A DNA stretch of 64,000 nucleotides from Nitrospirota bacterium (lineage in GTDB: Bacteria; Nitrospirota; Nitrospiria; JACQBW01): contig JACQBW010000011.1 in the NCBI GenBank assembly GCA_016194305.1, positions 62,001 through 126,000 of the forward strand, written 5' to 3'. The first letter of the stretch is position 1; every line of letters starts with the position of its first letter. The notes below the pieces were generated by a model, which saw only the letters and a list, made by a program, of their open reading frames with translations, was not told where the DNA came from and ran no database searches. Shown here in pieces: positions 33,596 to 53,008 of this stretch. The position numbers and the translations under genes are program-made.

Positions 33596-34201
33596 ATGAT
33601 GACAAATTTATATAGCTACTCAGTGAGCAAGGCGAACGAGAGGGGGAGGCTCCATGCGGCTCCGCCGCTGGAGGGGGCGACGCGAACCCCTATTATAGAC
33701 AATCAAAGAGGTTTTACGTTGATCGAGCTTCTCGTCGTGTTGGTCATTATCGGAATCCTAACCGCTATTGCTGTGACGCGTTATCAGGATCTCACCACTG
33801 AAGCCCAAATTGGCGCAACAAAGGGAAACCTGGCAACGATAAAGGGTGGAATTAGTCTCTTGCACGCCCGGTTTTTATTGGCGGGTTACGGAGGAACAGC
33901 ACAGGAATGGCCATCCGTCGCAGAGTTAAATAATAACTTAACCGCGGGAAGAACCGCAGCCTTGAATGGTCTTAAAATCATCGAAGGCCCTTCCACGGCG
34001 ACCTGTGCAAGCTGTATGCCTCCGGATTCTGTGATTTCAAACGCAAGGACGGTGACCGCGGTAACCACCGCGAATGCGGACGCCCGAAGTGTATCGGCTG
34101 GGGCCGGGATCGGCTGGGACTATGATCCCGTATCCGGCCAGATTTATGTTGCGGCCACCACGCCAAGCGATTCGCTGGGCACTCCGGCCAACTTGTGGTA
34201 A
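33596..34201 (+). CDS. Type IV prepilin with a 39-residue repeat-encoded leader
   Basis: A 201-residue prepilin. The peptidase cleavage site is G39/F40 in DNQRGFTLIELLVVLVIIGI, with Glu at +5 of the mature protein. The ATG at 33596 is strongly supported by AAAGGAGGT seven bases upstream, yet the leader is far longer than the usual 5-15 residues. Its residues 9-34 are encoded by a 79-bp dispersed hairpin repeat (33620-33698). The mature domain (about 162 residues) is GspG-like in its first part (KGNLATIKGGISLLHARFLL) with a Cys pair CASC. It is the first of three pilin genes after pilC. Confidence 0.85.
   Translation: MMTNLYSYSVSKANERGRLHAAPPLEGATRTPIIDNQRGFTLIELLVVLVIIGILTAIAVTRYQDLTTEAQIGATKGNLATIKGGISLLHARFLLAGYGGTAQEWPSVAELNNNLTAGRTAALNGLKIIEGPSTATCASCMPPDSVISNARTVTAVTTANADARSVSAGAGIGWDYDPVSGQIYVAATTPSDSLGTPANLW
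33620..33698 (+). repeat. 79-bp hairpin repeat, copy B (inside the prepilin leader)
   Basis: It aligns without gaps to 50365-50443 with about 12 mismatches. Central hairpin: CTCCA-T-GCGGC, loop TCC, GCCGC-TGGAG. The other copy has CTTCA-T-CCGGC, loop TCT, GCCGG-TGAAG, so both stem changes are compensated. It is translated in frame as SVSKANERGRLHAAPPLEGA and continuing TRTPII. Confidence 0.85.
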
Positions 34202-34325: not shown

Positions 34326-34368
34326 ACGCTAAAATTATATAACCATAACTACAAAAGGAGAATTATAG

Positions 34369-34818
34369 ATGAAGGTATTAAAAAATCAGAAAGGTTTTAC
34401 ATTGATTGAGCTAATCATTGTAATCGTCGTATTAGGTGTGTTGGCGGCTGTTGCCATTCCTCAGTATGTCAATATGGTCGATGACGCCAGAGCGGCAGCA
34501 AATACAGGCTACGTTGGAGGATTAAGAAGTGCTATGGCCATCAGCACGGCAAATTATACCCTTAAGAGTGCTTCCTGTGTCCCCAATATTATGACGGCCG
34601 CAGGTGCGATTACTTCAACAAATGTGGAGGCCTGTGTCAGTGGATCGCGTCCAGCTTCATTAACTGCAAACGGGGCTTCTCCCGGACAATGGGTTGGATT
34701 TGCTCCCAATCTTACTTCTGGAGGTGCAGTTGGAACCGTAACTTGGAATGTCGTTCTGGCAACAGCGGCTCTTCCTGCAACAATAACCTGCACCGGATCG
34801 GCCACTTATCAGTGTTAA
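34369..34818 (+). CDS. Type IV pilin (major pilin candidate, copy 1)
   Basis: A 149-residue class-I-type prepilin. The leader is MKVLKNQKG and cleavage is before FTLIELIIVIVVLGVLAAVA, with Glu5 conserved. The mature protein has four cysteines (ASCVPNIM, EACVSGSR, ITCTGS and a final C) that can form two disulfides, including a C-terminal loop. It resembles MSHA-type pilins. AAAAGGAG precedes the start. A strong intrinsic terminator follows directly, which often marks a highly expressed major pilin. A tandem copy lies 87 bases downstream. Confidence 0.92.
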   Translation: MKVLKNQKGFTLIELIIVIVVLGVLAAVAIPQYVNMVDDARAAANTGYVGGLRSAMAISTANYTLKSASCVPNIMTAAGAITSTNVEACVSGSRPASLTANGASPGQWVGFAPNLTSGGAVGTVTWNVVLATAALPATITCTGSATYQC

Positions 34819-34862: not shown

Positions 34863-34905
34863 TCGGAACTTAATTAATGAGAGTTTACTCACTCTGGAGC
34901 GATCG

Positions 34906-35358
34906 ATGGGCGTGTTAAGGAATCAAAAAGGCTTTACATTGATTGAGTTAATCATTGTCATCGTTGTATTAGGTGTGCTGGCGGCTGTTGCCATTCCTCA
35001 GTATGTCAATATGGTCGACGATGCCAGGGCGGCAGCAAATACAGGCTACATCGGAGGATTAAGGAGTACGATGGCCATCAGTACGGCAAATTATACTCTT
35101 AAGAGTGCTTCGTGTGTTCCCAATATTATGACCAGTGGAGGCGCGATCACGGCGACCAATGTCGAAGGATGTGTCAGTGGAAGCCGCCCCGCTTCATTAA
35201 CTTCAAATGGTGCGACTTCCCCTGGACAATGGGTTGGATTTGCTCCCAATCTTACTTCTGGAGGTGCAGTTGGAACCGTAACGTGGAATGTTGTCCTGGC
35301 AACAGCGACTCTTCCTGCAACAATAACCTGCACCGGATCGGGCACCTATAGATGCTAA
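34906..35358 (+). CDS. Type IV pilin (tandem copy 2)
   Basis: A 150-residue prepilin nearly identical to the preceding one; leader MGVLRNQKG, then FTLIELIIVIVVLGVLAAVA. ATG 34906 has GGAG six bases upstream; an earlier start at 34837 lies in the terminator hairpin and is unlikely. The four cysteines are kept. A 59-base stretch near the 3' end (35224-35282 against 34684-34742) is identical even at silent sites, while the 5' half has several silent differences, which suggests local gene conversion. Confidence 0.9.
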   Translation: MGVLRNQKGFTLIELIIVIVVLGVLAAVAIPQYVNMVDDARAAANTGYIGGLRSTMAISTANYTLKSASCVPNIMTSGGAITATNVEGCVSGSRPASLTSNGATSPGQWVGFAPNLTSGGAVGTVTWNVVLATATLPATITCTGSGTYRC

Positions 35359-50364: not shown

Positions 50365-50443
50365 TCAGCGAGCAACGCGAGCGAGAGGGGGAAGCTTCAT
50401 CCGGCTCTGCCGGTGAAGGGGGCGACGTGAGTCCCTATTATAG
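50365..50443 (+). repeat. 79-bp hairpin repeat, copy A (at the 3' end of the barrel gene)
   Basis: This is the second copy of the repeat at 33620-33698, ungapped. Hairpin CTTCA-T-CCGGC, loop TCT, GCCGG-TGAAG. Its terminal CTATTATAG supplies the stop and last codon of the minus-strand barrel gene. The preceding bases (50252-50364) hold two more imperfect hairpins (50258-50302 and 50330-50347) without T-tracts. Confidence 0.8.
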
Positions 50444-53008
50444 ATGCACGCCGAAGTTAAGATAGTAATGTATGATCCGTTCCCCCGGAATTGATGATGA
50501 GATCGGATAAGCGATCTGAAAGTCGAGACTGGTTGGGTAGGCGCCAAACAAATCCAGCTCCTGATGGACTCCTGTTCCAAAATCCGATAAGTATTGGTTA
50601 AATAAAAAGAGATTATGTTCTTCGGAAGCGTTTCCGGCATCGATAAAGACCTTCCCTTGCAGCGTATGAAGAAGCGCAAGACCCACGATATTTTTGTCCA
50701 GCTCATATAAAACAGGAAAGTTATATTCCAGCGAGAAGATGGCCATATTGCTTCCTGATATGGAGGACTCGGTATAACCCCGGAGTCCCATTCCCGCTCC
50801 GGCAAAGATTGGCGCATTAAGCGGACCGCTTGACTCGGTCATTCTTGTAATAAAAGACAAGGTTTGATAAGGAGACCATCGTTTCTCATTCGTGGTATCG
50901 AATCGAACTCTGCCGTTAAAAGGATGCTCCGGTCCCGTAAATTGTTGATTATATTCAAAAGTTAAATTATAGGTGAGGTATCCGATTTGGTAATCGAGTG
51001 TAAAACTTCCCCTGGTTTCATCTTCCTGGCTTGGTAGAGAAACCACTTCCGTCCTAAGGTTTCCACCCGTACTCTGGCTGAACAAATCCCCCTTTTGTTT
51101 TGAAAAAGTGTGGGTATAATCCGCGCGGACACCCCGAGCTCCTTCCAGTTTATAGTAGTAGAATCCGAAGATATTGTTATTGTCGTACAGTCTCCTAAAG
51201 GATCCTCCGAATTCAATTTGGGGAGAATGGGTTTGAAAATCCATCGCTCCGTTAAACTTGTCGAGAAGAAATTTCCATTGATGCGGGTTTCGATTGTTAA
51301 ATAACTCGGGGTCGTTGGTGAGATGTTCAGGATCCAGTTCTACGATTTTGACCGGTGAACTGCTTTGAAAAGTGTAGGTGACATTCGGCTGTTCGATCAG
51401 CTTGGTTATTTCAAGTTTTGAACGGTCAGAAAGTGTTGCGCGCACGGTCAACGGTTCGATTCCTTCTCCCTCTTTTTTGACCTGAATCGTGGTTGTCAAC
51501 AGATGATCCGAGCGCTCTTCGGTTACTTTCTGAAGGCTGAAATCGGGTTGCGGATAACTGATTAGCCATTGTTGATAAAACCATTCGAGATCCCGGCGGG
51601 ACAAATATTCGCTTAACTCGATGAAGGACGGCTGTTCTCCTTTTCGAATCAAATCGAGATAAGCGTTAACAATTTCCACAGTCTTTTCTCTTCCCAGAAG
51701 ATTTTGAAGCTTAAAAAGAATTCCGGTTCCTTCCGCTCTCGGCGTATTATAAAGTCGGATGTTTTCACGGAAGGGGAGCGGTTTGCCTTCTTTCAAAAAG
51801 ATCTCACGGAAAGCAGGATTTGGGGTATACAAAATTTCGTCCACAATCGGCAGAAAAGCAAACGGCTTTAAGAATTTCTCAATGCCTTCGAGGGGATGGT
51901 TTAATTTTTTAAATAAGTAGGCCTGGCTCGTGTGGTCTGCGAGCATCTGAATGATCCAGTCGTCTGCCCATGGAATCTGCGCCCTCCAGAGATATGTGTA
52001 AATACCGTGAATCAGCCGTGCTTCGTGGTAGGTCTTGAGGGGGGGGAGAAGTTTATAGAGAACATGGCTTACCAGGACGATCCCTTCTCCCTCTTCGAAA
52101 AGATCTTCATAGAGGTAGGCTTCGGCCAGCCGAAGAATTATCGCATTGGAGACCCCATGTTCTTCTTCAAAAAATTGAAGCGCTCCATCGGCGGTCTTCA
52201 GTACCTTCGAAGCGTATTTCATATCTTTTGCAAAATAGGAATAATAGATAATGTGATTTGGTTTTTCCAAAATCATATCCCGATACTGGTTTGAAAAGAT
52301 TAGGGATAAAAATCCGCTATTCCCCGATCTCAAAGAAAGCGTTTTTGAATTGTCAGCAAGCGTCTTTTCGATAAGGACCCCGGTGTGGTTGAGTTCATAT
52401 TTAATAGGGTATTCCAGATGAAGCAAAAAATGAGATAGAGGCGGAGGCTTATTGATCTGCCAGCTGTTCCCGACCAGATTGGGAAGATAGGGGTGCCATC
52501 CCCCCGCAAGCGAAACAGTTGATTTAAAAAACCCGAACTCTCCCAGACGCTCTGGAATCAGGGTTGTAAAGGAAAGGGAGAGCGTGGTAAATTTGCCTGG
52601 AATAATTGGTTTAACCAGTTGAATTTCGCAAACCACATTTTGTCCCAGAGTTGTTCCGGGACATTGAATTGTAAGAAGTCTCCCTGAAGAATCCCGCGCA
52701 TCAAAAAGATCCATCTTCCCTCGGGAAAAGCGTTTGGGAAACGATCGGTTATAGATCTCCTGAGGGAGTGCGGAAGGAGGGGTCAGATACCGGTTGGGAT
52801 AGAGCATCATCGTAATGGATTTCAATGGGACTGTCGAAGAATTCACGAAAGTCACCGCCATATTCCCCCGAATGATTGGTTGAGACTTTTCCGGAAATTC
52901 AAACAGGGCGTTTATTTCGTAGGAGGGGTGAAATTTCGCCGCGTAAAGGTTTTGGGTCATCCAACACAGAAAAAAGATAAAAAAAAACACTGTTTTCATC
53001 CCCGACAA
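50438..53008 (-). CDS. M1-peptidase-like domain fused to an Omp85-type outer-membrane barrel
   Basis: An 856-residue exported protein. Signal peptide about 1-23. Residues about 25-600 follow the layout of M1 gluzincin peptidases (N-terminal beta domain with TMMLYPNRYL, middle helical domain), but the zinc site is degenerate: YHEARLIHGIYTYLW is found where HExxH would be, so catalysis is doubtful. Residues about 600-856 are an outer-membrane beta-barrel with the Omp85 hallmark AGMGLRGYTES and a final aromatic-rich strand (YYLNFGVHL). It may be a surface or assembly factor. It is divergent from the midA-nuo genes. Confidence 0.7.
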   Translation of the reverse strand: MSGMKTVFFFIFFLCWMTQNLYAAKFHPSYEINALFEFPEKSQPIIRGNMAVTFVNSSTVPLKSITMMLYPNRYLTPPSALPQEIYNRSFPKRFSRGKMDLFDARDSSGRLLTIQCPGTTLGQNVVCEIQLVKPIIPGKFTTLSLSFTTLIPERLGEFGFFKSTVSLAGGWHPYLPNLVGNSWQINKPPPLSHFLLHLEYPIKYELNHTGVLIEKTLADNSKTLSLRSGNSGFLSLIFSNQYRDMILEKPNHIIYYSYFAKDMKYASKVLKTADGALQFFEEEHGVSNAIILRLAEAYLYEDLFEEGEGIVLVSHVLYKLLPPLKTYHEARLIHGIYTYLWRAQIPWADDWIIQMLADHTSQAYLFKKLNHPLEGIEKFLKPFAFLPIVDEILYTPNPAFREIFLKEGKPLPFRENIRLYNTPRAEGTGILFKLQNLLGREKTVEIVNAYLDLIRKGEQPSFIELSEYLSRRDLEWFYQQWLISYPQPDFSLQKVTEERSDHLLTTTIQVKKEGEGIEPLTVRATLSDRSKLEITKLIEQPNVTYTFQSSSPVKIVELDPEHLTNDPELFNNRNPHQWKFLLDKFNGAMDFQTHSPQIEFGGSFRRLYDNNNIFGFYYYKLEGARGVRADYTHTFSKQKGDLFSQSTGGNLRTEVVSLPSQEDETRGSFTLDYQIGYLTYNLTFEYNQQFTGPEHPFNGRVRFDTTNEKRWSPYQTLSFITRMTESSGPLNAPIFAGAGMGLRGYTESSISGSNMAIFSLEYNFPVLYELDKNIVGLALLHTLQGKVFIDAGNASEEHNLFLFNQYLSDFGTGVHQELDLFGAYPTSLDFQIAYPISSSIPGERIIHYYLNFGVHL

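Follow-up and report, generated by a model that had tools for sequence, protein, structure and literature searches.

A dispersed three-hairpin palindromic element, probably mobile and non-autonomous, in groundwater Nitrospirota and in MAGs of other bacterial groups

Two copies of a short palindromic element are present, both on the plus strand, in the 64-kb stretch of DNA analyzed here (referred to as the window). Copy 1 is composed of a 71-nt core (50366-50436), which was delimited by alignment and corresponds to the covariance-model match G000:C11:112366-112436, and a 3′ tail, ATTATAG (50437-50443), recognized from the sequence, the ORF list and the composition of the tails of 230 sites, whose consensus is close to ATAATAG. 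This copy is located between convergent ORFs. The core of copy 2 (33621-33691) forms an in-frame part of the leader of a type IV pilin-like gene (33596-34201, plus strand; Pfam PF07963, NCBIfam TIGR02532), as indicated by alignment, model match and translation, and is followed by an identical tail (33692-33698). The two copies had initially been annotated as a gapless pair of approx. 79 bp, in agreement with our alignment (85% identity over 80 nt, 50365-50444 versus 33620-33699); the length of the core (71 nt, plus a tail of approx. 7 nt) was set from the wider family and not from the window pair. Patterns derived from the 5′ and 3′ parts of the element each matched twice within the window, against 0.02 and 0.00 matches expected from shuffled sequences, and revealed no third copy there. 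Chance origin of the copies was rejected on the basis of these counts, the BLAST search of the genome and the covariance-model matches.

The stop codon (TAA, 50440-50438) of an 856-aa ORF located on the minus strand (50438-53008) falls within the tail of copy 1, and the element therefore supplies the stop, as the initial annotation had proposed. In contrast, the name "M1-like/barrel" that had been given to this ORF is unsupported, since its product matches no Pfam or NCBIfam family. The pilin-like gene carrying copy 2 adjoins two further, tandemly arranged pilin-like genes (34365-34818 and 34902-35358), which are 85-92% identical over long stretches.

The complete element (approx. 80-90 nt) consists of a short 5′ extension, the core with its three consecutive hairpins, and the AATAG-like tail. 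Hairpin I (50368-50382 in copy 1, 33623-33637 in copy 2) consists of two GC-GA-GC arms around a three-base loop, contains two facing G.A mismatches and is separated by a G-rich linker from hairpin II (50395-50418 and 33650-33673), the central hairpin with a bulged T. Hairpin III (50419-50435 and 33674-33690; GGGGC, seven-base loop, GCCCC) is nearly invariant in the family. Hairpins I and II of copy 1 were placed by covariation, and the hairpins of copy 2 by alignment together with the covariation analysis. As first noted from the sequence of the two window copies, the stem differences in hairpin II are accounted for by two compensated pairs, one T-A against C-G and the other C-G against G-C; both copies retain the bulged T. 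Where CGTC or CGAC occurs in the element, it is confined to the 3′ domain. In copies from genomes labelled Deltaproteobacteria, hairpin I is sometimes a perfect stem of other sequence (e.g. GCCGC-ACA-GCGGC or GCCCGC-AAA-GCGGGC), and some copies have an additional palindrome immediately upstream, or a different 5′ half fused to the same 3′ domain. One such palindrome, close to GTAGATACCCACGGG...CCCGTGGGTATCTACC, abuts the core in some genomes (L130, L146, L170, L186, L091), while a foreign 5′ half, GTTGCTCCTCCGATGCCCCCACACCCCGCGCTTG..., is joined to the 3′ domain of the element in a chimeric repeat found at L124, L126, L139, L163, L181 and L193, and likewise at L205, L208, L224, L226 and L234.

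BLAST analysis of the assembly to which the window belongs (2,265,330 bases in 37 contigs) yielded 20 matches: 16 full-length copies, two partial copies and two matches of 17 nt. The 16 full-length copies were used to construct a covariance model, which at E ≤ 0.01 gave 19 matches in this genome and 31 and 15 in the two remaining genomes of its family, each representing its own genus. Three genomes of another family contained 56, 28 and 15 (E ≤ 1e-6), so that these high-copy relatives carry 15-56 copies each. When 295 genomes of the phylum were sampled, 16 had a match at E ≤ 1e-4; outside the high-copy genomes, most of these have one to three copies. Copies in tandem also occur. A pattern scan of named genomes gave at least 120 matching stretches; the 80 among them that were listed derive mostly from "Nitrospirae" groundwater MAGs, and exact pattern matches among those listed were also found in MAGs bearing the labels "Deltaproteobacteria", Syntrophus, Syntrophobacterales and Bdellovibrionales. 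Part of this spread across groups could be the result of errors in MAG binning. A 2-kb stretch is common to a genome of the window's family (G002) and the record Nitrospirae bacterium NC_groundwater_954. Carriage by plasmids or phages was considered and rejected: a 78-nt consensus matched none of 72,556 plasmid and 50,697 phage records, and viral contigs gave no match to the element pattern.

The covariance of the stems was analyzed in two sets of copies. In the 16 copies from the window's own genome, the stem positions vary with retention of complementarity (95.0% of cells paired), the covariation score was 0.202 compared with 0.114 in shuffled alignments (none of 500 shuffles reached the observed value), and the signal was lost when the stem partners were slid. 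The larger set comprised 142 distinct copies that passed a length-and-motif filter and were aligned with MAFFT without structural information. In this set 98.1% of the cells of hairpin II are paired and 69 of 1420 are double-changed, against a mean of 5.9 and a maximum of 15 in 300 shuffles, while hairpin I is paired in 91.9% of cells and has nine double-changed cells (shuffle mean 0.8, maximum 4); these shuffle counts are not probabilities, since the copies are related by descent. Hairpin III is paired in 99.4% of cells with no double changes, and its pairing, lacking covariation, is therefore a prediction. A single pair position takes AT, GC, GT, TA and CG states, and several pair types at one position speak for repeated events.

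The folding energy of one consensus is not unusual (z-scores of −0.40 and −0.44), and the minimum-energy fold of the plus-strand consensus differs from the covarying one; the structural case consequently rests on covariation and not on stability. When mutual information was ranked in 132 end-anchored 71-mers, only two structural pairs, at ranks 13 and 14, appeared among the top 20; in that set many 5′ halves were misaligned, and the MAFFT alignment was used instead. Selection on the folded form, put forward in the initial annotation as the simplest explanation of the window pair, is supported by the covariation in both the genomic copies and the 142 distinct copies. Such selection may act through the mobility of the element rather than through a function at either of the two window sites.

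Some copies are placed within genes. The core is poor in stop codons, with 121 of 168 copies open in five or six of the six frames, compared with 37% of composition shuffles. A mechanical search placed 36 copies inside long open frames, many of which are unproven as genes, and host genes were counted only when supported by a protein family. The element was found in frame in UvrC (where the profile match breaks at residue 455, just ahead of the insert), in RlmN, in a GlpC-like protein and, in antisense orientation, in PriA. A single MMPL transporter gene (L065, 9216-11954) contains two separate in-frame copies, and DabA carries the element in frame at two sites. An alignment of 24 DabA sequences (four picked as carriers of the element and 20 fetched for comparison) revealed that the insert occupies a loop of variable length; in the comparison set one sequence has a shortened remnant, one has perhaps a rearranged remnant, and the other 18 have different loops. 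Aspartate-semialdehyde dehydrogenase, MiaA and RfaE have terminal extensions formed by the element. The pilin leader in the window is encoded for the most part by copy 2 and lies N-terminal to the N-methylation motif at residues 36-59; no ATG, GTG or TTG start codon is present between the copy and this motif. Pilin leaders of this type are cleaved off, so that the mature pilin would not carry the part encoded by the element. For annotators, it should be noted that in these genomes peptides of the type ASERGRLHPALPVEGATRAP or SEREGEAPSGFAGGGGDASP are repeat-derived.

Taken as a whole, the sequence data make it likely that the copies represent a non-autonomous palindromic element that is mobile, has dispersed through groundwater Nitrospirota and also occurs in MAGs assigned to other groups; it resembles a small genomic parasite that has preserved its fold. 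This reading is based on the many copies per genome, the existence of filled and empty sites, the in-frame insertions in conserved proteins, the compensatory evolution of hairpins I and II, the strictly kept 3′ domain and the preference for the sense orientation between co-directional genes. We envisage that a folded single strand (ssDNA or RNA) would be recognized by the machinery that moves the element, and recognition of the fold would keep the stems paired while their sequence drifts. As the core tends to be open in most frames, insertions that fit the reading frame would be tolerated in loops, leaders and the ends of proteins. Two pairs of filled and empty sites were aligned, both between diverged species. 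In several genomes a single copy has long been kept at one DabA site, which is more suggestive of inheritance than of movement.

Direct repeats of 29-120 bp flank six of 184 copies, ending no more than 26 nt upstream and starting no more than 11 nt downstream of the core. Most are duplicated 3′ ends of genes; three of the segments correspond to tRNAs, namely tRNA-Gly (approx. 120 bp), tRNA-Trp (49 bp) and a further tRNA (38 bp), and the others comprise the 3′ end of rplL (59 bp), the 3′ end of a gene (47 bp) and a 29-bp segment. In the rplL case (L128, 4644-4713) the element adjoins a complete gene, and the last 59 bp of its end are repeated, with approx. 90% identity, on the far side. Direct-repeat scores of at least 20 were obtained for seven of the 184 copies, against 1.34 in shuffled pairs; the seventh, located approx. 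90 nt away from the core, probably represents an intragenic repeat. Most copies have no target duplication, which counts against the mobile reading, and short end repeats did not exceed background.

A dedicated transposase or other mover of the element was not found by the PF01797 search of the window's genome and its high-copy relatives. It is nevertheless conceivable, though we consider it rather unlikely, that the copies are REP/BIME-type elements mobilized in trans by a transposase of the Y1 (RAYT/IS200) type. Genes matching PF01797 are present in five of the six high-copy genomes (15 matches in total), and the mosaic units and core-adjacent palindromes described above resemble BIMEs. However, the window's own genome, which is 95% complete, has no PF01797 match, the element is near none of the ten Y1 loci fetched (of the 15 matches, from five relatives), and some Y1 loci have inverted repeats of their own. 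A Y1/RAYT gene flanked by the element was not found in the window's genome or at these ten loci. The data gave no positive support for a Y1-type transposase acting in trans. The Y1 genes at L239 and L241 are bounded by the inverted repeats GGGTCAGGTCT...AGACCTGACCC, which are unrelated to the element.

Somewhat less probable still is that the copies are structured RNAs working in place, i.e. mRNA elements between operon genes that the host needs for stability, processing or attenuation, with dispersal being secondary. The orientation of the copies favors such a role, as 51 sense versus 11 antisense copies were found between co-directional ORFs (p = 2.8e-7); this count was made on 187 copies, 56 of which had too little flanking sequence or too few neighbors, with ORFs defined by length alone and orthologous copies counted separately. 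Conservation points in the same direction. Among 11 pairs of loci compared, the flanks of five aligned too poorly to judge, and at all six remaining shared sites the core (similarity 0.84-0.99) is better conserved than either of the 300-nt flanks (0.60-0.90). In addition, two DabA pairs have synonymous changes in only 6 of 42 codons of the element, versus 140 of 400 downstream codons; conversion between copies is unlikely here, because each of the four genomes has a single model match, and gene transfer or separate insertions possibly lie behind this conservation. On the other hand, the 16 copies of the window's genome share no consistent neighboring gene, copies occur inside protein genes, no intrinsic terminator was found at copy 1, and no Rfam family corresponds to the element (no match at the gathering score in the window, and only chance-level matches near the element). 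Three copies of the window's genome (G000:C8:72295, G000:C9:4342 and G000:C9:6570, i.e. L007, L010 and L013) are located just upstream of frames that by eye look chemotaxis-related (CheA-, CheB- and CheY-like).

We regard as improbable a bacterial SINE-like retroposon, moving through RNA, in which the transcript would fold into three hairpins, the near-invariant 3′ domain would be recognized by a reverse-transcription machinery, and insertion at staggered breaks would leave target duplications of variable, sometimes considerable length. If true, this explanation would join the covariation, the sense bias and the strictly kept 3′ end with the chimeras, in which the 3′ domain but not the 5′ half is shared, and with the absence of a DNA transposase from the window's genome.

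Compensation of the stems by mutation alone, with one hairpin arm copied onto the other (quasipalindrome correction) and no selection on the fold, would produce double changes in a single step and agrees with the perfect stems of hairpin I seen in some Deltaproteobacteria-labelled copies, but is improbable, since imperfections that such copying would erase persist in the 142 copies (the bulge position is occupied in 115, with T in 104, and both G.A mismatches are retained in 107), and G-U states and one-sided changes are also found.

Returning to the reading as a mobile element, its closest parallels include the Rickettsia palindromic elements (RPEs), described in PMC2229807 as long stem-loops of 105-146 bp with terminal inverted repeats. 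Judged by these descriptions, both are palindromic, approx. 100 nt in length, multi-copy, intergenic as well as in frame in conserved protein genes (here those of UvrC, PriA, RlmN, DabA, MMPL and the GlpC-like protein), and have no known mover; in contrast to the RPEs, our element has three separate consecutive hairpins, no terminal stem, different hosts and probably a different sequence. RPE-4 and RPE-6 are classed as CGTC REPs in the account given by PMC3733652. According to the same account, REPs are single hairpins of 20-40 bp, tagged at one end and found largely in dimers, and the GTAG/CGTC REPs and BIMEs resemble the element as dispersed palindromes with mosaic units, some of which are intragenic (20-30 aa), with genes for repair and replication among their hosts. 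The element differs from them in its 71-nt core with three hairpins and in lacking a RAYT link in the genomes examined, and instead of a 20-40 bp palindrome with an unpaired GTAG or CGTC tag it has an AATAG-like tail. The main text of PMC3733652 contains no occurrence of Nitrospira, Geobacter, Syntroph or Bdellovibrio.

YPAL/RU-2 of Yersinia (168 bp, enterobacterial, with target duplications of 3-26 bp; PMC2229807) is, as described there, similarly not A+T-rich; like our element it contains internal inverted repeats, lacks TA termini and is known from filled as well as empty sites. Its target duplications vary in length, and our element may share this feature, although the repeats flanking it are longer (29-120 bp) and restricted to six of 184 copies. 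The features of a MITE are missing: most copies have no terminal inverted repeat (only 6 of 172 have part of the 3′ domain repeated upstream in inverted orientation), and the short end repeats are at background level. The best reading, by analogy with what these sources describe, is that the element works like the Rickettsia palindromic elements and the intragenic REPs (PMC2229807, PMC3733652, PMC12306157). We do not file it as an RPE or a REP, because it has no stem of terminal inverted repeats, no tagged hairpin of 20-40 bp and no RAYT link.

Searches of the open-licence literature with the DNA and peptide strings of the element returned nothing relevant, the DNA strings leading only to a paper on a human microRNA cluster, and keyword searches there gave no paper about repeats of this kind from Nitrospira or Nitrospirota. 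Rickettsia is known to have palindromic elements that are translated within working enzymes; the present element would be an independent case, spanning several bacterial groups and combining strong covariation, a near-invariant 3′ domain, filled and empty sites and a few flanking duplications, which makes the recognition of the fold and the mode of insertion of such elements testable questions. A second type of palindromic repeat, GGGGGCATCGGAGGA...CCGCACGGGCCCC, is arranged in tandem in the window's genome (L019/L020, G000:C5:67902-68013) and is also present in other carriers of the element (L052, L135, L197).
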